In this document: piece after piece, positions 52,382-64,000 of the stretch
Numbering within the stretch: position 1 is the stretch's first letter
Layout of the letters: every line of letters starts with the position of its first letter
Origin: Ancylobacter amanitiformis
GTDB lineage: Bacteria > Pseudomonadota > Alphaproteobacteria > Rhizobiales > Xanthobacteraceae
DNA length: 64,000 bases
Assembly: GCF_030814815.1 (NCBI RefSeq)
Contig: NZ_JAUSVR010000005.1
Location: 186,001 to 250,000, forward strand
Direction of reading: 5' to 3'
Position numbers and translations under genes: made by a program
The notes under the pieces: model-generated
The model's input: only the letters and a program-made list of their open reading frames with translations
Database searches by the model: none
Told to the model about the DNA's origin: nothing

Positions 52382-52567
52382 AGCTCGAAAAAAGGATGTT
52401 GCGCCGAGGGTTTAAGCGGGCGCGATGACGAATGCGTGACGCAGCGGGGCGATGTGTGGCCGGCCTCGTCCGCCGGGCGTGCGCGCGGATGCGATCCCGC
52501 AAGCCGCGTGGATATAGGGAATATCGCGCGGCCGGGAAGGAGCAAGGTGGCTTCCATGATCCATTGA

Positions 52568-52577
52568 CCCCCCCCCC
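52568..52577 (+). repeat. C10 homopolymer before the efflux operon
   Basis: Ten consecutive C residues lie 16 bp upstream of the emrA-like start and just before its GGAGG. Long single-base tracts in such positions can slip and alter transcription or translation of the following gene. Confidence 0.9.
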
Positions 52578-52593
52578 TCTCACGGAGGCCGCG

Positions 52594-53772
52594 ATGAACA
52601 TGGCCACCAATCCGGCCGCGCTGAAGGCCACGCCGATCGCCGATCCGCCTGTCGCCCCGATATCGTCCATTCCCCCGGCCGCGCCGTCTTCCCGTCGCGG
52701 CCTGAAGCGCGGGCTGGAAGTGGCGGGTGTGCTGCTGCTGGCCGGCGCCATTGCCTATGCGGGCACCGAATACTGGACGCAGTGGCGTTTCGAGACCAGC
52801 ACGGACGATGCCTATGTGCAGGCCGATATCGTCACCATCGCCCCTCAGGTCGCCGGCTATCTCGTGACGGTCAACGTGACCGACAACCAGCCGGTGAAGC
52901 AGGGCGAGGTGCTCGCCGTCATCGACCCGCGCCCGTATCAGGCGGCGGTCGACCAGGCCGTGGCCGATGTCGACGCGGCCCGGGCATTGATCGACGATCA
53001 CGCGGCGCAGCTCAACGAGCAGCAGGCGCTGATCGAGGAGGCCAAGGCGCAGATCGCCGCCGACCAGGCCGCCGAGACCTTCGCCGAGCAGAACAACCGG
53101 CGCTTCACCAAGCTCGCCCAGGACGGTTTCGGCCCGGTCGAGACCGCCGAGCAGACCACCTCGCAGATCGGCCAGACGCAGGCGCAGGTGACGCGCGACC
53201 GGGCGGCGCTGGACGCGGCGCAGAAGCAGGTCGCCACCCTGACCGCCCAGCTCGCCGAGGCGCGGGCGAACCTCGCCCACAGCCAGGCGGCGCTCGATAC
53301 GGCGAAGCTGAACCTTGGCTATACGGAGCTGCGCGCCCCGGTGGACGGGGTCATCGGCGCCCGGACCTTGCGTGTCGGCCAGTATGTCGAGCCCGGCACC
53401 GCGCTGCTGGCGGTGGTGCCGCTGCAGGCAACCTATGTGGTCGCCAACTACAAGGAAACCCAGCTCACCGACGTGAAGCCCAACCAGAAGGTGACGATCT
53501 CGGTCGATACCTATCCCGACCTGCATGTGCGGGGCTTCGTCTCCAGCCTCGCTCCGGCCAGCGGGCAGGAATTCGCCCTGCTGCCGCCCGACAACGCCAC
53601 CGGCAACTTCACCAAGATCGTCCAGCGCATTCCCGTGCGCATCGACATCGACCGCACCGATCCGCTGGCCCGGCAGTTGCGGCCTGGCATGTCGGTGGAG
53701 ACGACGATCCGCACCGATGCGACCATTCCCGCCGATGTGAGGCGCAACGCCTATATCCCGCCCAGCGAGTGA
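52594..53772 (+). CDS. HlyD/EmrA-type membrane fusion protein
   Basis: A 392-residue periplasmic adaptor of a multidrug efflux pump. A cytoplasmic Pro-rich start precedes one transmembrane helix (about 41-60). Next come the barrel-sandwich start TSTDDAYVQADIVTIAPQVAGYL, a long coiled coil (about 125-225, with repeated AxAxxA heptads), and the closing LNLGYTELRAPVDGVIGARTLRVGQYV. GGAGG precedes the ATG at 52594. The MFS partner gene follows 7 bp later, so the pair forms an EmrAB-like system. Confidence 0.94.
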   Translation: MNMATNPAALKATPIADPPVAPISSIPPAAPSSRRGLKRGLEVAGVLLLAGAIAYAGTEYWTQWRFETSTDDAYVQADIVTIAPQVAGYLVTVNVTDNQPVKQGEVLAVIDPRPYQAAVDQAVADVDAARALIDDHAAQLNEQQALIEEAKAQIAADQAAETFAEQNNRRFTKLAQDGFGPVETAEQTTSQIGQTQAQVTRDRAALDAAQKQVATLTAQLAEARANLAHSQAALDTAKLNLGYTELRAPVDGVIGARTLRVGQYVEPGTALLAVVPLQATYVVANYKETQLTDVKPNQKVTISVDTYPDLHVRGFVSSLAPASGQEFALLPPDNATGNFTKIVQRIPVRIDIDRTDPLARQLRPGMSVETTIRTDATIPADVRRNAYIPPSE

Positions 53773-53779
53773 GGGTGTC

Positions 53780-55348
53780 ATGGCCTCCACGTCCACTTTC
53801 GCGCCGCCGGCCGAGACGCCGGCGGTGGAGCCCGGCGCCAGCCTCGTCACCTGGATCGCGGTGATCGGCTGCATGCTCGGCGCGCTGATCGCCGTGCTCG
53901 ATATCCAGATCACCAATGCCTCGCTGCCCTATATCGAGGGCGGCATCGGCACCGGCTCGGATAACGGAACGTGGATTTCCACCTCCTACCTGATCGGCGA
54001 GATCATCATGATCCCGCTGACCGACTACCTGAGCCGGGTGTTCGGCTTCCGCCGCTTCATCCTCTCGGCGCTGGTGCTGTTCCTCATTTTCTCGATGGGC
54101 TGTGCTTTCGCCACCAATCTTTCGCAGATGATCGCGATGCGCGGGCTGCAGGGCTTCTTCGGCGGCTGCCTGATCCCGCTCGCTTTCACCATCGTGCTGA
54201 CCAAGCTGCCGCGCCGCCAGCAGCCGATCGGCATCGCCATCTTCGCGATGACCGCGACCTTCGGCCCGGCGATCGGCCCGACCATTGGCGGCTGGCTCAC
54301 CGACCAGTTCGGCTGGCCCTACATCTTCTTCATCAATCTCATTCCCGGCGCCGTCATGCTGGGCATGCTGATTCCGACGCTGGAGAAGAGCCCGCTGAAC
54401 CTGCACCTCCTGAGGGAGGGCGACTGGTGGGGCATCGGCTTCATGGCGATTGGCCTCGCCTGCCTGCAGACGGTGCTGGACGAGGGCAACAAGGATGACT
54501 GGTTCGGCTCGCCGTTCATCGTGCGGCTGTCCGTCGTCGCGGTGATCTGCCTCGCCATCTTCGTGACCATCGAGCTGAGGGTCGAGAAGCCGGCGGTGAA
54601 CCTGCGGCTGTTCACGCGGCGCAATTTCGCGCTCGGCACCATCTCCAACGTCATTGTCGGCTTCGCGCTGTTCGGATCGGTCTATGTGCTGCCGACCTAT
54701 CTCGACGAGGTGCAGGGCTATGACGCGCAGCAGATCGGCATGGTGCTGGCCTGGGTCGGGCTGCCGCAGCTCATCATCATCCCGTTCGTGCCGATGCTGA
54801 TGAAGCGGATCGACCCGCGCGTGCTGGTCGGCATCGGCCTCGCCATCTTCGCGGCGAGCTGCTTCATGAACACGCATCTCAGCTATCATGTCGGCGGCGA
54901 CCAGCTGATGCTGACCAATATCGTGCGGGCGCTCGGGCAGGCGATCGTGCTCTCCCCGCTGGCCAGCATCACGATGATCGGCATGCCGCCGGCGCTGTCG
55001 GGCCAGGCTTCGGGCCTGTTCAACATGATGCGCAGCCTTGGCGGCGCCATCGGCACGGCGGCGCTGGCGACGCTGATCACCAAGCGCGAGCAGTTCCACT
55101 CCAACATCATCGGCCAGTCGGTCACGCCCTATGGCGAGAACGTGCGCGAATTCCTCGACCGCATGCAGCACTATTTCATGCAGCACGGCTCCGACGCCAC
55201 GCGCGCCTATCACCAGGCCGAGATCCTGCTGGGCCAGATGGTGGCGCAGCAATCGCTGATCATGGGCTTTTCCGACACGTTCGCCGCGCTCGGCGCGCTC
55301 TTGCTGCTCGCCGTGGTGGCGGTGGCCTTCACCCGCCGGCTGGCATGA
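53780..55348 (+). CDS. DHA2-family MFS drug transporter (EmrB/QacA type)
   Basis: A 522-residue inner-membrane proton antiporter with about 14 helices. VLDIQITNASLPYIEGGIGTGSDNGTW and LSRVFGFRRFILSALVLF match the first helices and motif A region. FGPAIGPTIGGWLTD is motif C, typical of drug/H+ antiporters. It works with the adjacent fusion protein and an outer-membrane channel encoded elsewhere. Substrates cannot be predicted. Its 3' end is convergent with, and 6 bp from, the nitrilase operon. Confidence 0.95.
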   Translation: MASTSTFAPPAETPAVEPGASLVTWIAVIGCMLGALIAVLDIQITNASLPYIEGGIGTGSDNGTWISTSYLIGEIIMIPLTDYLSRVFGFRRFILSALVLFLIFSMGCAFATNLSQMIAMRGLQGFFGGCLIPLAFTIVLTKLPRRQQPIGIAIFAMTATFGPAIGPTIGGWLTDQFGWPYIFFINLIPGAVMLGMLIPTLEKSPLNLHLLREGDWWGIGFMAIGLACLQTVLDEGNKDDWFGSPFIVRLSVVAVICLAIFVTIELRVEKPAVNLRLFTRRNFALGTISNVIVGFALFGSVYVLPTYLDEVQGYDAQQIGMVLAWVGLPQLIIIPFVPMLMKRIDPRVLVGIGLAIFAASCFMNTHLSYHVGGDQLMLTNIVRALGQAIVLSPLASITMIGMPPALSGQASGLFNMMRSLGGAIGTAALATLITKREQFHSNIIGQSVTPYGENVREFLDRMQHYFMQHGSDATRAYHQAEILLGQMVAQQSLIMGFSDTFAALGALLLLAVVAVAFTRRLA

Positions 55349-55354
55349 GGCGGC

Positions 55355-56293
55355 TCACACCGCGCGCAGGGTGAAGGCCTCGGCGAGGCGGGCGCCGTCG
55401 CTCATCCGTTCCAGCCGGCAATGATGGGCGAGCCGCCCGTCGCCGCGCCGCTGGCCGAGCCAGCGCACCCGCACCCGCTCGCCCGGATCGACATTGGCGT
55501 GAAAGAACACCTCTCGCCGCAGCGTTGCCGCGCGCGGTGCCTGCCTTCCGTCAAAGTGCCATTCGGCGCGATCGATGAAAGAAACGAAGCTGGCAAAATA
55601 AAGAAAGCCGGCACCGTTGAAATCCTGTGCCGGGCAGGGATCCACCTCGATATACGGCCCGGCCTCGCCGGCCTCGCCGGCCTCGGCGTCACGCTCGACG
55701 TAGGGGCGGAGGTCGAAGCCGAAATGCCGGTCGAGCCGGCGCGCGCGCAGGGCGGCGGCCCGGCCCGCGAGGCTGTCGGCGCATGTTCCGGCGGATGGGG
55801 CGGCGGGGGGCGGGAAGCCCTCCAGCGCCACCCGAGCCACCTGGTGGTTGCCCCCGCCCGAGCCGCGCCGCACGAAGGTGGAGACCAGCTCCACCGTGCC
55901 CATCGGCTCACCCGCGCGGCTCAGCACATGGCGGCTGGCGCATTGCGTGCGCGAGAGACGGGCGATGGACGAGCGGATGGCGAGCGTGTCGTTCTCGCCA
56001 AGCGCGGCGAAGCGCGCATCGTGGATCGCCAGCGCCGAGAAGGCGGCATAGACCGGCGCGCCGTCGATGTCGCGGAAATCGGGAACCGCGCGCCCGGCCA
56101 TGGCGGCCAGCATCATCCAGTGCCGGTGCCCGAGATCCTTCAGCAGCCAGCCCTCGGACAGGCCGCCGAGCGCCAGCTGCGGCATGCCGAGCCGGACCGT
56201 CTCCTCCAGCGGGCGCGGTTCGCCGTGGAGCCCGCTGCGCTCGGGCGACAGGCCCGGCGGGCGGGCGAGGGGGGGAGGGACGATCGCGTTCAT
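55355..56293 (-). CDS. LnmK-like (Pnap_2097-type) double-hotdog protein
   Basis: A 312-residue protein resembling the double-hotdog acyltransferase/decarboxylase LnmK of polyketide synthesis and the uncharacterised Pnap_2097 family. Markers are LGMPQLALGGLSEGWLLKDLGHRHW near the N-terminus, RLSRTQCASRHVLSRAGEPMG and DFNGAGFLYFASFVSFIDRAEW in the second half, followed by the hotdog tail REVFFHANVDPGERVRVRWLG. An acyl-CoA or acyl-carrier reaction is inferred, not shown. The ATG at 56293 overlaps the flavoprotein stop as ATGA, so it is the last gene of the nitrilase operon. Confidence 0.78.
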   Translation of the reverse strand: MNAIVPPPLARPPGLSPERSGLHGEPRPLEETVRLGMPQLALGGLSEGWLLKDLGHRHWMMLAAMAGRAVPDFRDIDGAPVYAAFSALAIHDARFAALGENDTLAIRSSIARLSRTQCASRHVLSRAGEPMGTVELVSTFVRRGSGGGNHQVARVALEGFPPPAAPSAGTCADSLAGRAAALRARRLDRHFGFDLRPYVERDAEAGEAGEAGPYIEVDPCPAQDFNGAGFLYFASFVSFIDRAEWHFDGRQAPRAATLRREVFFHANVDPGERVRVRWLGQRRGDGRLAHHCRLERMSDGARLAEAFTLRAV

Positions 56294-57555
56294 GCTGCGC
56301 TGTCCTCGCGTCCGCGCGCCGCCCGCGTGGCGATGTGGTCGACGATGAATTCCGCGTCGCGCCCGACGCTGCCGAAGCGGCCGGAGCCCCAGGTGTGCAG
56401 CCAGGGCAGGCCGATGAAATAGATACCCTCGCGCTGGGTGATGCCGCGCCGGTGCTGGGGGTGGCCGGCGCCGTTGAATACCGGCGCGTCGAGCCAGCGG
56501 AAATCCGGCTTGAAGCCGATGCACCAGATGATGGAGGTGATGCCGGAGGCGGCGAGATCGAGCGTGCCGCGCTCCCCGGCCGGCTGCCAGACCGGCTCGT
56601 AGGCCGAGGGCGGCGGCGCGTCGATGGCGTTCTCGGCAATGTATTTGTCGATCGCCGCGTTGATGCCGTTATAGGTCCGGTCGGCATCGTCGAGCGTCCG
56701 GGCGAGGTTGGTGTCGAAGACCAGCCCGGCGCCGTCATAGTCGCGCAGCACGCCGAACAGTTCCATGCCCTCGCGGGCGAATTTGCGCAGGTCGATGTCG
56801 CGCCCGCCATCGCGGCCGGTGACATAATGGTTGGTATTGTCGCGCACGCCTTCGCGCAGCGGGTGCTGCTCGACCGCCATGTCGTAATAGCCCATGTCGG
56901 CCAGCCAGGTGACGACGTCGCGGCCGCGATAGAAGCGGGCGCAGCGCGGCGCGTTGCCGACCGCGAGGAATACTTTGCGGCCCTCAAGGTGCAGGTCCTC
57001 GGCGATCTGCGCGCCGGACTGGCCGGAACCCACCACCAGCACCGCGCCCTCCGGCAGCTGGCCGGCATGGCGGTACTGCGCGGAATGGATCTGCGTGATC
57101 GAGGCGGGCAGCCGCTCGGCCATGCGCGGCACGATCGGCTCGTGATAGCCGCCCGAGGCGACCACCACATTATCCGCGCTCACCTCGCCCGCCGAGGTGG
57201 AGACGAGGAAGCCGCCGGCGGCGCGCGGGCTGACGCGGCGCACCGCGACGCCCTCGCGGATGGGTGGCTCGACCTTGGCGCGGAAGCCCTTGAGGTAATC
57301 GAGGATTTCGTCTTTCTTCATGAAGCCGTGCGGATCGCTGCCGGCATAGGCATGGCCGGGCAGGGCGCATTGCCAGTTCGGCGTCACCAGGCAGAAATTG
57401 TCCCAGCGCTGCGTGCTCCAGGCATGCATGGCCGTGTGCTTCTCGAAGACGAGGTGATCGATGCCCTGCTGCTGCAGGAAATGGCTGGTCGACAGGCCGG
57501 CCTGACCGCCGCCGACGATCACGACCGGATAGTGCTGGATGAGGTTCTCGTTCAT
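56290..57555 (-). CDS. Flavin-dependent oxidoreductase, MSMEG_0569 type
   Basis: A 421-residue flavoprotein resembling flavin-containing monooxygenases. FAD-binding VVIVGGGQAGLSTSHFLQ is at the N-terminus and the NADPH loop VLVVGSGQSGAQIAEDL is at about 170-186. Markers such as WDNFCLVTPNWQCALPGHAY, RCARFYRGRDVVTWLADMGYY and GLPWLHTWGSGRFGSVGRD identify the Nit1C-associated family. The substrate is unknown; oxidation of a nitrogen-containing intermediate is a guess. It starts 30 bp after the MSMEG_0570-like gene. Confidence 0.92.
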   Translation of the reverse strand: MNENLIQHYPVVIVGGGQAGLSTSHFLQQQGIDHLVFEKHTAMHAWSTQRWDNFCLVTPNWQCALPGHAYAGSDPHGFMKKDEILDYLKGFRAKVEPPIREGVAVRRVSPRAAGGFLVSTSAGEVSADNVVVASGGYHEPIVPRMAERLPASITQIHSAQYRHAGQLPEGAVLVVGSGQSGAQIAEDLHLEGRKVFLAVGNAPRCARFYRGRDVVTWLADMGYYDMAVEQHPLREGVRDNTNHYVTGRDGGRDIDLRKFAREGMELFGVLRDYDGAGLVFDTNLARTLDDADRTYNGINAAIDKYIAENAIDAPPPSAYEPVWQPAGERGTLDLAASGITSIIWCIGFKPDFRWLDAPVFNGAGHPQHRRGITQREGIYFIGLPWLHTWGSGRFGSVGRDAEFIVDHIATRAARGREDSAA

Positions 57556-57585
57556 GGCTTGCGCTCCGGTGTCGGGCGCGCGGGC

Positions 57586-57873
57586 TCACGCGTCGAAGGA
57601 TTCGACGACGACACGCGCATCGGGATGGGTGGAAAAGGTGCCGCCGGCCGCTTCCAGCCGGGCGAGCTGGCCGAGCGCGCGCGAGCAGGAAAAGCCATAG
57701 CGCGCCGCGACCCGATCGCTGGCAATGGTCAAGGCTTCGCGGCTGCGGCCGAGAAAGTCGGCTAAGGGATAGCTCGCGCCGGGGGCGAAATAGTCCTTGA
57801 TGACCAGCGAGGGCGAATAGCAGTGCTCCTGCGTTCCGTCCGGCCAGCGAATGGTGAAGGTCATTTCAGGCAT
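57586..57873 (-). CDS. MSMEG_0570-type nitrogen-starvation-associated small protein
   Basis: A 95-residue protein with TFTIRWPDGTQEHCYSPSLVIKDYF at the start and CSRALGQLARLEAAG near the end. It is a small conserved member of the nitrilase cluster, with no known activity. ATG at 57873 overlaps the glycosyltransferase end by 8 bp; a second ATG at 57864 is possible. Confidence 0.88.
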   Translation of the reverse strand: MPEMTFTIRWPDGTQEHCYSPSLVIKDYFAPGASYPLADFLGRSREALTIASDRVAARYGFSCSRALGQLARLEAAGGTFSTHPDARVVVESFDA

Positions 57874-59035
57874 GGAGAGGCTCCGCGAGGCTTTCATAGA
57901 CGGCGAGATGGGCGCGGGCGGTGGCCGTCCAGTCATGGCGGGCGGCGACCACCGGGCCCTGCGCGGCAAGGCGCGCCGCGAGGGCGGGATTGAGCGCGGC
58001 GGCCAGCGCGTTGGCGATCGAGCCGGAACTCGTCGGATCGCACCACACCGCCTCGTCCGCGCCGATATGCTCGGTGAAGGGCAGGATGTGCGAGACAACA
58101 GCCGGCACTCCGCACGCCATCGCCTCCAGCGCGACGAGGCCGAAGCCTTCCGTCACCGGGGGGAAGGCGAGCACATCGGCGAGCCGATACAGCGCGGGCA
58201 TGTCGGCTTGCGGCAGCGGGCCGGTGAGGATCACCGCCCCGGCGGGCAGGCCGCTCGTCGTCAGCGCCGCGGCGAAGCGTTCCCGATAGGCATGGTGATC
58301 GAGCACCGAGGCGCCGCCGGCAATGATGAGCTGGGCGCCCGGGTGCAGCGCCCGCAGCGCGACGAAGGCATCGAGGATACGCACTGTGTTCTTGCGCGCC
58401 TCCACGCCGCCGACGCTGAGCACGATCGGCCCGCCACCAAGGCCGAGACGGGCGGCGAGCCCGGCTTCCCTTCCATCCGGCAGGGGCGAGAAACGCTGCC
58501 GGTCCACACCGTTGCCGACCAGCGTCGCGCGGGCCTCGAACGTCTCCAGCAGCAGATCCTGCCAGAGCCGGCTGACCACGAAGTGCCGGTCGGCGGCGAT
58601 GATCGCCTGCCGCTGCAGCGCCATCAGCGCGGGATCGGCGAAGGTGTCGACATGGTGCACGGTGCGCGCGAAGCCGGCGATCCACCCGCGCGCCTTCAGC
58701 ACGGCCAGCGCGTTGCCGGAAATGCCGTCCTGCGCGTGAAACACGTCGAAGCAGCGGTGCGCCGGAGCTTCGAAGTAATCTACATAGTCGGCTATTCGAA
58801 TGCGCACCATCTCGGTGACATCCGTCCCGACGGGAGAAGCCGGCACGCTTGCCGTGCCGCACAGGGTGGGGCGGAAGAAGCCGGCGCCCTTCGCATCCGG
58901 CGCGTGCACCACCACCTGGTGGCCAAGGCCGGTGAGCGCGTCCGCGAGTTCCAGCGCGTGCACCACGCCGCCGCGCGGATTGGTGGAATGGGCGAGGATG
59001 GCGATGCGCAGCGTCCCGCTCGGTGCGCGCCTCAT
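57866..59035 (-). CDS. Glycosyltransferase family 4, MSMEG_0565 type
   Basis: A 389-residue GT-B glycosyltransferase. LRIAILAHSTNPRGGVVHALELADAL forms the N-terminal acceptor domain, and VGNGVDRQRFSPLP with PIVLSVGGVEARKN starts the donor domain. FPPVTEGFGLVALEAMACGVPAVVS contains the EX7E-like nucleotide-sugar motif. It suggests that the cluster makes a glycosylated product or intermediate. It overlaps both neighbours by 4-8 bp. Confidence 0.92.
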   Translation of the reverse strand: MRRAPSGTLRIAILAHSTNPRGGVVHALELADALTGLGHQVVVHAPDAKGAGFFRPTLCGTASVPASPVGTDVTEMVRIRIADYVDYFEAPAHRCFDVFHAQDGISGNALAVLKARGWIAGFARTVHHVDTFADPALMALQRQAIIAADRHFVVSRLWQDLLLETFEARATLVGNGVDRQRFSPLPDGREAGLAARLGLGGGPIVLSVGGVEARKNTVRILDAFVALRALHPGAQLIIAGGASVLDHHAYRERFAAALTTSGLPAGAVILTGPLPQADMPALYRLADVLAFPPVTEGFGLVALEAMACGVPAVVSHILPFTEHIGADEAVWCDPTSSGSIANALAAALNPALAARLAAQGPVVAARHDWTATARAHLAVYESLAEPLHA

Positions 59036-60036
59036 GCGGCATTCTCCCGCGGCGCGGCGCCCGGCCCGCAGCCGATGAGCGGGCGGGTGGCGAAATCCCA
59101 GATGGTCTCGCGCGCCCCGGCATTGACCACGGTGACGCGGCGGTCGGCGGTGAGAGTGCCGATGCGGTCGCTGGCGATGCCGCGCGCCTGGAAGGCGGCG
59201 AGGATGGCCGGCACATGGGCGGGCTGGGCGGAGAGGAGGTAGCCGTAGCTGGGGAAGCTCATCAGCCAGCGGGCCGGGTCGACGCCCTCCGGCGCGGGCA
59301 CGCGGGCAAGCTCGATCTCGACACCGACGCCGGAGGCTTCCGCCAGCATGGCGCTCGTGCCGACCACGCCGCCCTGGCTGATATCCTTGGCGGCGCGGGA
59401 GAGCCCGCTTTCCGCGATGAAGGGCAGCAATTCCAGGTCGCCGCGCAGCTGGTCGGCGGAGGCCTCGGTGGCCGCTTCCCAGTTGGAGAAGGGTTCGCGG
59501 TAGCGCCCGCGCAGGTCGATGGCGGCGATCAGCGTCTCGCCCGGGCGGGCGTCAAAGGAGGTGAGCAACTTTTTCGCGCGGCCGAGAATGGCCACCGAGA
59601 GTTGGCCGCGATCGGTGGAAAGATTGGTGTGGCCGCCGACAATCGGCACGCCGAAGCGCTGGGAGGCGGCGCGCAGCCCGTCCAGCACCGGCGCGGCGCC
59701 CTCCTCGCCGTCCGCCCACACCGCATCGACCACGGCGAGCGGGCGTCCGCCCATGGCGGCGATGTCGGAAATATTGACCATTACCCCGCACCAGCCGGCA
59801 AACCATGGGTCGCCGGCCACGAAACGGTTCATGAAGCCCTCGATGGCGAGGAGCAGGAAGCCATCGCCATCGGGGATCGCCGCGCAGTCGTCGCCGACCC
59901 GGATCGCGGCCCCCCCGCCAAGGCCGAGCCGGGCGGCGGCGAGGCCGATATCGGCCTTGGCCATCATGCCGGCCGCGCCGCGCAGCGTGGCGGCAAGGGC
60001 CTCGAACGCGGCGGCCGAGAAGGGGGAGGTGCTCAT
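59032..60036 (-). CDS. AIR synthase-like protein, sll0787/MSMEG_0567 type
   Basis: A 334-residue PurM-like protein. The ATP-binding domain has IRVGDDCAAIPDGDGFLLLAIEGFMN and VNISDIAAMGGRPLAVVDAV, the C-terminal domain has AAKDISQGGVVGTSAMLAEASG. Family members such as PurM, SelD, ThiL and HypE use ATP to activate a carbonyl or phosphate group, so it may activate an intermediate in this pathway. In mycobacteria the counterpart is fused to the GNAT domain; here they are separate genes with one base between them. Confidence 0.92.
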   Translation of the reverse strand: MSTSPFSAAAFEALAATLRGAAGMMAKADIGLAAARLGLGGGAAIRVGDDCAAIPDGDGFLLLAIEGFMNRFVAGDPWFAGWCGVMVNISDIAAMGGRPLAVVDAVWADGEEGAAPVLDGLRAASQRFGVPIVGGHTNLSTDRGQLSVAILGRAKKLLTSFDARPGETLIAAIDLRGRYREPFSNWEAATEASADQLRGDLELLPFIAESGLSRAAKDISQGGVVGTSAMLAEASGVGVEIELARVPAPEGVDPARWLMSFPSYGYLLSAQPAHVPAILAAFQARGIASDRIGTLTADRRVTVVNAGARETIWDFATRPLIGCGPGAAPRENAA

Positions 60037-60037
60037 G

Positions 60038-60610
60038 TCAGGCCGCCCTCCGCATCGACGCCGAGCCGGCCAGCGCTGCGCGCGCCTGCGCGTGGAAGCC
60101 GGTCTCGGCGTCGGCGATCGGGGGATAGAAGGCAAGGTCCGCCTGCATGAGGGCGTGCGGGCGGCCGTGCCGTTCCGTCTCCTCGATGAGGTTCCAGTGC
60201 AGGCGGCGGAACAGCAGGGCGTTCTGGCTCTGCACATGCGCGAAGAAGGAGGTGGCGCCGCGCGCATGGGCGGAGGAAACCGCGAGCCGGATCAGCGCCG
60301 CCCCCAGCGCGCCGACCTTGCGATACGGCGCGGCGACGGCGAGGCGCGAGCCCCACCAGATGCCGGGCGCGGATTCATGGATGCGCACCGTGCCGACCAC
60401 ATCGTCCGCCATGACGCCCAGCAGGGAGAGCGCGACGATGGGAATGGCGACGTCGTCGAGCGCGTCGCGGTCGTCGCTGCCGAACAGGCCCTGCTCCTCG
60501 CAGAACACCTGTCGGCGCAGAGCCGCGGCGCAGCGGCGCTCCCAGGTCGCGGTGGCGAATTTCACCTGGAAATCGGCGGCGATGAAGGGGCGGAACGGTT
60601 CGAACATCAT
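60038..60610 (-). CDS. GNAT N-acetyltransferase, sll0786/MSMEG_0567 type
   Basis: A 190-residue GNAT-fold protein. RRQVFCEEQGLF, VVGTVRIHE, GSRLAVAAPYRKVGALGAALIRLAV (acetyl-CoA loop region) and FFAHVQSQNALLFRRLHW are the cluster-specific signatures. The acceptor is unknown. The ATG at 60610 overlaps the radical SAM stop as ATGA. Confidence 0.9.
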   Translation of the reverse strand: MMFEPFRPFIAADFQVKFATATWERRCAAALRRQVFCEEQGLFGSDDRDALDDVAIPIVALSLLGVMADDVVGTVRIHESAPGIWWGSRLAVAAPYRKVGALGAALIRLAVSSAHARGATSFFAHVQSQNALLFRRLHWNLIEETERHGRPHALMQADLAFYPPIADAETGFHAQARAALAGSASMRRAA

Positions 60611-61758
60611 GAACAGCCGCCCTGAGCAGAGTTTTGCCTCTCATAGGTCGACAGCGCCGAGCAGGCGCCGCATTTGGCGCAGCCCGCCTTGACGTCGATG
60701 GATTTGAGGCCGGTGGCGAGCAGCATTCCCGCGAGCGGGCCGAGGATGGAATTCATGAAGGCGGGCGAGGGCGTCGGGTGGCTCTCCAGCGGCGTGCCGG
60801 AGATCGGCACGAAGGGCACCACGAAGGGATAGACGCCCATGCGGGTGAGCCGGTCGCAGATTTTCAGGATGTCCTCGCGGCTGTCGCCGAGCCCGGCGAG
60901 GATGTAGGTCGAGACCTGCCCGCGCCCGAACACCGGCACGGCGGCCTCGAACGCCCCAAAATAGCGCTCGACCGAGACCTGCGCCTTGCCGGGCATGATC
61001 GCCGCGCGCACTTCCTCGGTGCAGGCTTCCAGATGCATGCCGAGCGCGTCGGCGCCGGCCGCGTGCATCCGCGCGAACCAGGCATCGTCGTCCGGCGGCT
61101 CGCACTGCACCTGGATGGGCAGGTTCACCGCCGCCTTCACCGCCGCCGCGCTCTCGGTAAGGATTGCGGCGCCGCGATCCTTACCGGGCGGGGTGCCGGT
61201 GGTCATCACCATGTGCTTCACGCCATCGAGCTCGACGGCGGCTTTCGCCACCTCCGCGAGCTGCGCCGGGGTCTTGCGCTCGATGGTGCGCCCGGCCGCC
61301 AGCGACTGCCCGATGGCGCAGAACTGGCAGGTCTTGGTGCGGCTCTGGTAGCGGATGCAGGTCTGCAAGACCGTGGTCGCCAGCACATCGCGGCCATGCA
61401 GCACGGCGATCTTGGAATAGGGGATGCCGTCGGCGGTGCTCAGCCCGTAGAATTTCGGCTGCAGCGGGAACGACACCTCGCCCAGCACCAGCCCGTCGCG
61501 GCTGATGCGGCTGCGGCCATAGGCGTCCGGCTTCTCCACCAGATATGGGCTCTCGAAGGCCGGCGCGGTGTGCACCGGCACCATGACGGTCATGCCGTCC
61601 AGCGTCAGCGCCTTGTGGTCCGAAGGCCCGGCGCCGCCGCGCCGTGAATCCGCGCCGGCTCGGGGATCAACCAGCCGCACCCCGTAGGACTGCAACTCGT
61701 TGATCAGGTGCTCGGTCGGCATCGGCTGGAGATCGGTTGCCGGATCCATCGGTTTCAT
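60607..61758 (-). CDS. Radical SAM protein, MSMEG_0568 type, with CX9CX2C cluster motif
   Basis: A 383-residue radical SAM protein. The SAM-cluster cysteines are atypically spaced: Cys134, Cys144 and Cys147 in [18 protein letters not shown] (CX9CX2C instead of CX3CX2C). The C-terminus has a second cysteine group CAKCGAC (about 360-366) and a terminal GGC, suggesting an auxiliary Fe-S cluster. ATG at 61758 has GGGAG 8 bp upstream; a GTG at 61767 and ATG at 61713-61722 are alternatives. The start lies 92 bp inside the nitrilase frame. The reaction is unknown. Confidence 0.92.
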
Positions 61759-62749
61759 CGGTCGCACTCCCGTAGCTGGTGAAGGAGGGAGCGGCCTGCT
61801 GCGTCGCCAAATTCATGGGGACAGCCGGCCGGTTGTCTAGATGCAAGCTGAGCAGTTCCGGCCGCGCGTAATGGCCGACCGAATCCATCATCCGCTTGCG
61901 CTTGGTGATCAGCGCCATGTCGAGATCGGCGATGAGGATGCCCTCGCCGGAGGTCAGCGGAGGCACGACATGGCTGCCCTCGGGCGAGATGATCGCCGTC
62001 ATGCAGCCGCCGGTCAGCGCGCGGCGCAGCTTCTCCTCGGGCGAGATGCGGGCGATCTGCTCGTCGGTCAGCCAGCCCGTGGAATTCACCACGAAGCAGC
62101 CGGATTCCAGCGCGTGGTGGCGGATCGTCACCTCGATCTGCTCGGCGAAGATCGGCCCGACCAGCGAGCCGGGAAACTGCGCGACGTGGATTTCCTCGTG
62201 CTGCGCCATCAGCGCGTAGCGGGCGAGGGGGTTGTAGTGCTCCCAGCAGGCCAGCGCGCCGACGCGGCCGACGCGCGTGTCGACCACTTTCAGCCCGGCG
62301 CCGTCGCCCTGGCCCCAGATCATCCGCTCATGGAAGGTGGGGGTGAGCTTGCGGCGCTTGAGGGCCAGCGTGCCGTCGGCGTCGAACACCAGCTGGGTAT
62401 TGTAGAGCGAGCCATGGTCGCGCTCGTTCACCCCCAGCACCACCACGACGCCGAGGCGGCGGGCGCTGGCCGCCACCACCTCGGTCACCGGGCCGGGGAC
62501 GACCACCGCATTCTCATAGAGCCGCAGATGCTCGGCGCCGGTGAGCACCGGGGGCAGGACAAAGGAGAAATAGGGGTACCAGGGCACGAAGGTCTCGGGA
62601 AACACCACGAGTTCCGCGCCCTTGCCCGCCGCCTCGTCCAGCGCGGCGAGCACGCGGGTGAGCGTGCCCTCCAGGCTGTCGAGGTCGGGCGCGATCTGCA
62701 CCGCGCCGACGCGCACGACCCGTTTTTCCGCGATTCTCTTTCCGGCCAT
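61667..62749 (-). CDS. Nit6803/NitC-family nitrilase
   Basis: A 360-residue nitrilase with the catalytic triad Glu52 (FPETF), Lys133 ([11 protein letters not shown]) and Cys167 ([13 protein letters not shown]). It hydrolyses a nitrile to acid and ammonia or an amide. The close relation to the cluster's nitrilases (Nit6803 of Synechocystis, NitC of Pseudomonas) is based on neighbours and motifs. Its C-terminal ~40 residues after [13 protein letters not shown] are low-complexity, overlap the radical SAM gene, and may not be conserved. In NCIMB 11764-type cyanotrophs the homologue is needed for growth on cyanide, as I recall. Confidence 0.95.
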
Positions 62750-62784
62750 TGCAGCCTCCTCGGATGCGGTGGAGACCCGGACGC

Positions 62785-63267
62785 TCAGAGCGTCCAGGTA
62801 TCGAGGATGAAAGCGTTGTCGCGGCGGTGCAGGAGGATGATGTCGAGCACGTCGAGCGGGCTGACCGGGATGATGCCGGGGATCAGCGCGCCCTCGCCAT
62901 GCCCGTACAGCGCCTGCAGGGCGAAGCGGCAGGCATAGACCTTGCCGCCGTCATTGAGGATCTTCTCGATGCGGTTGTTGAAGTTCAGGTGGCCGGGAAA
63001 GGCCTCGTCGCCGAGCTTGGGGAAGCCGCGCTGCACGCCGAGCGTGACGCCGGGGCCATAGAGCAGCACCGAAGTCTCGAACCCCTTCTGGATCAGGCGC
63101 GAGGCCTGCAGCAGGTTGACGAGGCCGATCGAGCCCTCGAAGGCGACGGTGTGGAAGGTGATGAGCGCCTTCTCGCCGGGGGCGGCTTTGACGTCCTCGA
63201 ACTTCTTGTCCTCAAAGTCGACCAGAACGTCGCCCTTCTGATGGGCGGGGACGGTGATGGTGGCCAT
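62785..63267 (-). CDS. MSMEG_0572/sll0783-type nitrogen-starvation response protein
   Basis: A 160-residue protein with a DsrE-like fold. [42 protein letters not shown] and [29 protein letters not shown] are typical. In Synechocystis the sll0783 homologue responds to nitrogen starvation and its loss reduces PHB, as I recall; the molecular function is unknown. It is the first gene of the nine-gene operon, 35 bp before the nitrilase. Confidence 0.93.
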
Positions 63268-63661
63268 GTCGCTCTCCTAAGGTGAAACGGGGCCGGCAGC
63301 GCTGCCGGGTCACGCCATCTGGAACTGCAATCAATGTGCCAATTGATGGAATGCAAAAAGAATCAGCAAAACAGTCAAATTGCATTCAAATATACATTCA
63401 ATCCGGGATCGCTCGCCGATTCCGACCTGTTGAAACTCTGGGCGGGCGCGCAGCGAACAGGCAGGGTTTTGCTTGGTTTGCGGGCAGCTGACAGGAATAG
63501 CTTCGTACTCTTCCTGATGCAGCAATTGTTGGACCAGGGGTGACATGCCACCTCTGCAACATTATACAGTCAATTATGCCGTGCATGGATGGCGCGGGAC
63601 CGGAACGCCACGCCGAAGCGCGGCCGCCGTTGCCGCGAGCAAGACAGGAAGACCGACTGCG
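63268..63661. promoter_or_regulatory. Divergent control region of the nitrilase operon and mocR-type gene
   Basis: This 394-bp gene-free region is much richer in A/T than its surroundings between about 63330 and 63412, which marks it as regulatory. ATCAAT at 63330-63335 and ATTGAT at 63342-63347 form an inverted repeat around GTGCCA, 63-80 bp upstream of the first operon gene. CATTCAA recurs as part of GCATTCAAATATACATTCAAT near 63382-63402. These are candidate binding sites for the divergent MocR-type regulator, but no consensus is known to test against. Confidence 0.55.
63521..63536 (-). promoter_or_regulatory. Candidate sigma-54 promoter of the nitrilase operon
   Basis: Read on the minus strand, TGGTCCAACAATTGCT has the GG-N10-GC spacing of RpoN promoters (consensus TGGCAC-N5-TTGCW). 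It would start transcription about 240 bp before the first gene of the operon. A nitrogen-responsive role for the cluster makes this plausible, but the -24 half deviates from consensus at two positions and it is a by-eye match. Confidence 0.35.
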
Positions 63662-64000
63662 ATGGCCGACTGGACGCCCGACCTCTCCCGTTCCGACAAG
63701 CCGCGCTACCTCGCCATCGCCGACCTGATCGGCGAGGACATCCGCAGCGGCCGCCTCGCCATTGGCGACCGGCTGCCGCCGCAGCGCAAGCTGGCGAGCC
63801 GGCTGGATATCGATTTCACCACCGTGGCGCGCGGCTATGTCGAGGCGCAGAAGCGCGGCCTCGTCGAATCGCGCGTGGGGCAGGGCACGTTCGTGGTGGG
63901 TGCGCCGCGCCCGCGGACGCGCGCCGCCACACCCGCGCGGCCCACCGCCGTCGACCTCTCGATGAACCTGCCGCCCGAGCCGGACGATCCGGCCCTGATC
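63662..64000 (+). CDS. GntR-type MocR-like regulator (5' part only)
   Basis: The first 113 residues of a gene running off the window. The GntR winged helix reads RYLAIADLIGEDIRSGRLAIGDRLPPQRKLASRLDIDFTTVARGYVEAQKRGLVESRVGQGTFV. SMNLPPEPDDPALI follows, where a class-I aminotransferase-like domain begins in MocR/PdxR proteins. It probably senses a PLP or amino-nitrogen compound and controls the divergent nitrilase operon. Without the rest, a short GntR with a different effector domain is less likely but possible. Confidence 0.85.
   Translation, partial: MADWTPDLSRSDKPRYLAIADLIGEDIRSGRLAIGDRLPPQRKLASRLDIDFTTVARGYVEAQKRGLVESRVGQGTFVVGAPRPRTRAATPARPTAVDLSMNLPPEPDDPALI

Follow-up and report, generated by a model that had tools for sequence, protein, structure and literature searches.

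Nit1C gene clusters have been known since 2005, together with a betaproteobacterial variant that carries a glycosyltransferase (GT), and the cited part of that report gives no product (PMC1199592). They occur in several phyla and also in marine picocyanobacteria (PMC10119275). Relatives are the clusters of Podar 2005, nitABCDEFGH of P. pseudoalcaligenes and gpr MSMEG_0565-0572 of M. smegmatis; their regulators are the sigma-54 activator NitA in Pseudomonas and GlnR in M. smegmatis. Here we describe a nine-gene cluster of this type in a 64,000-nucleotide stretch of Ancylobacter amanitiformis (contig NZ_JAUSVR010000005.1), hereafter the window. An earlier, sequence-only reading of the window had linked such clusters to cyanide use and nitrogen starvation with no product, in agreement with the cited parts of the literature (PMC1199592, PMC11049912, PMC6039565). 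The operon in the window is like the known Nit1C clusters in its seven core families, the betaproteobacterial GT variant, gene order and strand, and unlike them in an extra last gene, gene I, and a divergent MocR-type regulator.

A further related system is the NitraS-ATII operon of the Atlantis II brine pool (PMC4751646, 2016), which encodes in order a hypothetical protein, a nitrilase, a radical SAM protein, an acetyltransferase, an AIR synthase, a hypothetical protein, an FAD oxidoreductase, another hypothetical protein and methylmalonyl-CoA (coenzyme A) mutase. This is the gene order of the Burkholderiaceae clusters without GT discussed below. NitraS-ATII is a single locus, and the cited part of the report lists the protein before the mutase as hypothetical and draws no function from it. 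In the part of the literature that we searched, no paper calls this pre-mutase protein LnmK-like or ties it to the mutase, and none describes the MocR gene of a Nit1C cluster.

In our judgement there is a slightly better than even chance that the nine genes form one nitrogen-regulated Nit1C-type operon, in which gene I, a relative of LnmK, would decarboxylate (2R)-methylmalonyl-CoA and transfer the acyl group, with no carrier from its own operon, to an acceptor supplied by other enzymes. This proposal builds on the gene content, the LnmK-like predicted fold of gene I, its conserved residues, its recurrent linkage to Nit1C and its dependence on a mutase in Burkholderiaceae.

Results and Discussion

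The nine open reading frames (ORFs) lie on the minus strand from 63267 down to 55355, in the order nitB-C-D-E-F-GT-G-H-I, and belong to nine separate NCBIfam families, each above its curated cut-off (Table 1). With nitB to nitG in order on one strand and a nitH-type flavoprotein, the locus is a Nit1C cluster as defined in PMC1199592, and the assignment made from the sequence alone is thus confirmed by families, order and strand. For comparison we sampled 297 genomes of the window's order and 299 genomes of a second family, taken as Burkholderiaceae (radical SAM search in the latter at E<=1e-60, mutase searches at E<=1e-100). The core genes recur in 32 further clusters of the window's order and 65 of the second family, mostly arranged in the same way, so that the operon is not a chance arrangement. 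The gaps are short, with 35 bp between nitB and nitC, 1 bp between nitE and nitF and 30 bp between nitG and nitH. The earlier statement of a single strand with gaps of at most 35 bp therefore stands, while its equal limit for overlaps has to be given up, because the nitC/nitD overlap measures 92 bp, or 56 bp with an alternative nitD start at 61722. Overlaps of 4 bp join nitD to nitE, nitF to the GT gene and nitH to gene I (ATGA), and the GT/nitG junction is either an 8-bp overlap or a 1-bp gap. Presumably, the nine genes are read as a single transcript.

One could think that such an operon serves merely to assimilate or detoxify cyanide and nitriles. The nitrilase would then free ammonia with the other proteins in support, and gene I and a mutase would only recycle acyl-CoA, from succinyl-CoA via methylmalonyl-CoA to propionyl-CoA, to keep carbon in balance. 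We consider this rather unlikely. In Pseudomonas, nit1C is described as necessary for cyanide assimilation (PMC11049912), and the sigma-54-type promoter match of the window fits nitrogen control. However, at least 31 of the 32 order clusters and at least 64 of the 65 second-family clusters retain the radical SAM, GNAT, PurM-like, nitG and flavin proteins, and that many conserved proteins exceed the needs of simple nitrile hydrolysis. In addition, deletion of the M. smegmatis cluster costs peroxide resistance, with cyanide unmentioned in the cited part of that report (PMC6039565). The pathway is probably biosynthetic and would build a molecule rather than only free ammonia from cyanide or nitriles.

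LnmK, to which gene I is related, is the methylmalonyl-CoA acyltransferase/decarboxylase of leinamycin biosynthesis (4hzo, 6x7l-p). Besides its own family model, gene I exceeds the cut-off of the LnmK-family model TIGR04098 (284.8 bits versus 100), and its predicted model shows a double-hotdog fold that is closest to LnmK, as the sequence-only reading had suspected. The residues aligned with LnmK Tyr62, which we take to be the catalytic residue, and with Asn216, which would be the loop asparagine named in the literature, are conserved in 47 of 48 and 48 of 48 cases. The name of the Pnap_2097 family comes from NCBI. That gene I is a thioesterase, releasing methylmalonyl-CoA or another acyl-CoA as the free acid with no acyl transfer, appears improbable in view of these residues and of the TIGR04098 score; in both comparisons, LnmK was also clearly closer. 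From the predicted shape, the conserved residues and the usual partner gene in relatives, gene I probably uses methylmalonyl-CoA.

This partner gene encodes methylmalonyl-CoA mutase and follows gene I in 15 of the best 80 of 281 named loci. In the second family, it stands beside gene I in 32 of the 33 clusters with an intact copy, in neither of the two with a truncated copy and in none of the 30 where gene I was not found (L233, cut by its contig, is one of these). When the 65 second-family genomes were searched whole, a mutase over the cut-off was present in 32 of the 33 with intact gene I, in 0 of the 29 without it and in 0 of the 2 with a truncated copy; G630 has a mutase over the cut-off and was set aside because its assembly splits the locus. 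One further match each, below the cut-off, was seen in G780, which lacks gene I, and in G839 and G732, which have it. The association gives a Fisher p of 7e-17 when kinship is ignored, and a kinship-aware test on a five-gene tree gives a median p of 0.0078 from 8 independent contrasts. Two partner mutases that we scanned reach 988.5 and 977 bits (NF006944 cut-off 876), and the Tyr and Arg patterns, which we take to mark the substrate residues, are each present in 36 of the 38 ORFs that could be drawn from 47 loci. On a plasmid of Paraburkholderia sp. FT54, annotated by others, the nine genes are followed by scpA, which overlaps gene I by 4 bp. The co-occurrence points to methylmalonyl-CoA as the likely acyl donor, which refines the earlier claim of an acyl-CoA-dependent last step. 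Most simply, gene I would require methylmalonyl-CoA, and a host lacking a housekeeping mutase would have to bring one along.

The radical SAM family was found in 33 of the 297 order genomes, gene I over its cut-off in 25, and both, at the same locus, in 21. The four gene I copies without the radical SAM gene all belong to genus g83 (taken as Stappia), and a Nit1C radical SAM gene was not found in the one Stappia genome searched whole. In the second family, 65 of 299 genomes have the radical SAM family and 33 have gene I over the cut-off, in all 33 within the Nit1C locus. Pooled, intact gene I is present in 54 of 98 Nit1C clusters, and 54 of the 58 copies over the cut-off lie inside one. The last gene is hence a recurrent member of the cluster, and the rare linkage that the sequence-only reading had named as evidence against its proposal is not what this neighbourhood survey found. 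Among the best 80 of the 281 named gene I relatives, 70 loci have the radical SAM gene in the stretch, 4 are from Stappia, 2 are satellites and 4 end at a contig edge (L119, L142, L151, L165). A phylum sample of 348 genomes contained 16 radical SAM and 5 gene I hits over the cut-off, 4 of the latter already in the order sample.

The position of gene I is also kept. It comes after nitH in all 21 order loci (broken copy included), 34 of 35 second-family loci and 61 of the 70 named ones; in Azospirillum, 8 of 9 loci have nitH moved forward with gene I still last. Two loci of genus g77 (L077:11628-12680, L080:10803-11741) hold an extra ORF of about 310 aa between nitH and gene I, for which the L077 copy gave no NCBIfam match. 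In G294, gene I is in three pieces (L086:6860-7739) in an otherwise complete cluster, and in the second-family loci L193 and L208 all that is left of gene I is an N-terminal remnant, and the mutase is absent.

In three hosts we found satellites of gene I with a mutase, each in addition to a main cluster from which gene I is missing: nitB-nitE-nitH-I-mutase in Caballeronia sp. dw_19 and nitH-I-mutase in a Paraburkholderia metagenome-assembled genome, both apart from the main cluster, and nitE-I-mutase ahead of it in Ralstonia sp. NFACC01 (L175; G682). By their content, the satellites suggest that gene I works together with nitH and nitE. That gene I and the mutase are an independent mobile unit, hitchhiking beside Nit1C and serving another pathway, is very improbable: satellites do occur apart from or ahead of the main cluster, gene I takes 18 changes on the radical SAM tree (104 clusters, 100 labelled), a relative is present in 60 of 72,556 plasmid records and two recombinase genes lie near the cluster on the one Paraburkholderia plasmid inspected, but all three satellites carry at least one Nit1C family gene, and the 54 linked copies lie on the cluster's strand, mostly right after nitH.

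The first two of these hosts do not have reduced clusters only, because each has a gene-I-free B-to-H cluster elsewhere in the genome. Likewise, an apparent loss of E, F, GT and G in Hansschlegelia plantiphila (L066/L137) is ruled out; the cluster is split, and another contig holds the PurM gene, E, GT, G and a further H. The GT gene itself varies, being absent in 4 of 33 order clusters and, in the second family, present in 33 and absent in 32 of 65.

Upstream, the MocR-type regulator gene is transcribed divergently from nitB. The sequence-only reading mentions neither this gene nor the promoter match described below. An opposite-strand MocR-type gene stands upstream of the radical SAM gene in all 32 other order clusters of the Nit1C type and in all 65 of the second family, as well as in 69 of the 70 named loci that have the radical SAM gene and in 5 of 6 others; the sets partly overlap. 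The pattern of the lysine that holds pyridoxal phosphate (PLP) was matched in 163 of 171 of these proteins, and the lysine is visible in the remaining 8. The regulator of the window is like the ectoine regulators EnuR/EhuR (PMC8739950) in its closest named model (EhuR, 454 bits) and its kept PLP lysine, and unlike them in that this score stays below the NF052286 cut-off of 480 and in its different set of neighbouring genes. Since EnuR binds N-acetyl-diaminobutyrate through PLP (PMC8739950), an amino compound is, by analogy, the likely signal. The MocR protein of PMC8567248 belongs to a cio/nit4 cluster and not to nit1C.

The operon may be controlled by a sigma-54-type promoter together with this putative PLP-sensing regulator. 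Scored with the -24/-12 consensus, matches of at least 10 of 11 positions are present in 27 of 33 intergenic regions of the order, with an average of 0.22 in shuffles and 0 on the opposite strand. Of these sites, 26 lie at 47-91 bp and the 27th (L091) at 235 bp; L073 and L081 reach 9 positions.

Table 1. Features of the Nit1C-type locus and its upstream region (positions in the window; scores from NCBIfam models).
Feature	Position	Strand	Remarks
gene I, Pnap_2097-family LnmK-like double-hotdog protein	55355..56293	-	TIGR04099, 324.1 bits, cut-off 125
nitH, MSMEG_0569-family flavin-dependent oxidoreductase	56290..57555	-	TIGR04046, 685 bits
nitG, MSMEG_0570 family	57586..57873	-	95 aa; TIGR04042, 129.7 bits
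GT4 glycosyltransferase, MSMEG_0565 family	57866..59035	-	TIGR04047, 489.7 bits
nitF, sll0787-family PurM/AIR-synthase-like protein	59032..60036	-	TIGR04049, 454.3 bits
nitE, GNAT-family N-acetyltransferase	60038..60610	-	TIGR04045, 226.3 bits
nitD, MSMEG_0568-family radical SAM protein	60607..61758	-	TIGR04043, 603.9 bits
nitC, Nit6803-family nitrilase	61667..62749	-	TIGR04048, 568.8 bits, cut-off 502.6
nitB, MSMEG_0572/Sll0783 family	62785..63267	-	TIGR04044, 270.4 bits, cut-off 109.85
sigma-54-type (-24/-12) promoter match	63326..63341	-	11/11 fixed consensus positions, 58 bp from nitB ATG
operator-like element ATACATTCAAT	63392..63402	+	one of two sites in the window's intergenic region
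operator-like element ATACAGTCAAT	63564..63574	+	site closer to the regulator's start
MocR-type regulator gene (GntR + aminotransferase-like), 5' part	63662..64000	+	461-aa protein, runs past the window

Among the other proteins, nitB belongs to a family termed DsrE-like in PMC6039565 and gave no match in a Pfam search. NitD contains a C-x9-C-x2-C motif and a C-terminal C-x2-C-x2-C motif, and the six cysteines of these motifs are conserved in every one of 14 aligned sequences. For nitG, the predicted model (pLDDT, the predicted local distance difference test, 94.2) is mixed alpha/beta and gave no match to the PDB with Foldseek at E<=0.001, although a missing match does not prove a new fold; it is possibly a new small fold. 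Its Cys63 is invariant and its Cys18 nearly so in 41 aligned sequences. Our reading of the ORFs identifies a membrane-fusion and major facilitator superfamily (MFS) efflux pair on the plus strand at 52432-55348. It is convergent with the operon and stops 6 bp short of the gene I end.

Several observations weigh against an LnmK-type role of gene I in the operon, or lend it little support. Gene I shares only about 20% sequence identity with LnmK. LnmK acts on an acyl carrier protein (ACP), whereas the operon of gene I has no ACP or polyketide synthase; NCBIfam and Pfam searches of the nine genes found no ACP, and nitG is ruled out as a carrier protein, its model having no helical bundle. Because no partner ACP is encoded in the cluster, we call gene I LnmK-like and not LnmK. 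Outside Nit1C, gene I sits with ACP-bearing gene sets, so that its reaction may differ: in the Stappia-type loci L062, L064 and L065 it lies near putative ACP, fatty acyl-AMP ligase, P450 and AMP-binding or nonribosomal-peptide-synthetase-type genes (matches mostly below cut-off), and the same ACP, ligase, P450 and AMP-binding set surrounds it on a Thalassospira marina plasmid annotated by others (L261). No mutase was found in the fetched Stappia-type stretches L062-L065. Furthermore, 44 of the 98 Nit1C clusters have no intact gene I, which is therefore dispensable for the core function, and the fifth copy of the phylum sample (G483) has an internal stop and no radical SAM gene. In the second family, GT is found more often when gene I is absent (22 of 30 clusters) than when it is present (11 of 35, counting truncated copies), with kinship ignored.

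Concerning the mutase, G656 has gene I in its cluster, and a search of its genome at E<=1e-100 gave no mutase. On a single-gene tree, no more than 3 independent contrasts had support, which does not suffice for a test. The window's genome has a mutase elsewhere, outside the operon, and so do 21 of 21 order genomes with linked gene I. As 10 of the 11 order genomes without gene I have a mutase too, the gene is uninformative in this order and its presence there is mere consistency.

Sigma-54-type matches occur in at least 23 of 65 Burkholderiaceae, at least 4 of 6 other and at least 48 of 71 named loci, lower bounds that result from taking the farthest of tied sites; in the order, the same counting gives 21 of 32. 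The four clusters there that lack GT (L084, L085, L088, L092) also have no sigma-54-type match, which suggests a separately regulated subtype. The operator-like pattern gave 75 sites in the 33 intergenic regions (0.4 in shuffles), having been drawn by eye from the very regions in which it was counted, and it is nearly absent in Burkholderiaceae, with 4 sites in 3 of 65 regions.

Conclusion

In summary, we favour a nitrogen-regulated Nit1C-type operon with a methylmalonyl-CoA-dependent, LnmK-like last step. Nitrogen shortage, through sigma-54, and an amino signal, through the MocR-type protein, would switch the operon on. NitE, nitF, nitD and nitH would then make or oxidise a nitrogen compound, and gene I would attach a C3 unit drawn from methylmalonyl-CoA, releasing CO2. 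Its acceptor would most likely be the nitrogen compound handled by nitH, the flavin enzyme, and nitE, the GNAT protein. The optional glycosyltransferase may attach a sugar, and the nitrilase would hydrolyse a nitrile within or alongside the route.

More tentatively, and as a possibility to which we give clearly less weight, the Nit1C clusters with gene I may make a new class of nitrogen-starvation metabolites. There, a carrier-free LnmK relative would put a C3 group (propionyl or methylmalonyl-derived) on an intermediate that is an amine, a hydroxylamine or derived from a nitrile. In hosts that otherwise have no mutase, a dedicated B12 mutase would provide the building block, and the clusters would have a PLP-sensing regulator of their own. 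Within the 65 second-family genomes with Nit1C, mutase and gene I go together, which suggests a reason for the presence of a methylmalonyl-CoA mutase in some Burkholderiaceae. A likely acyl donor makes the long-orphan Nit1C pathway directly testable.

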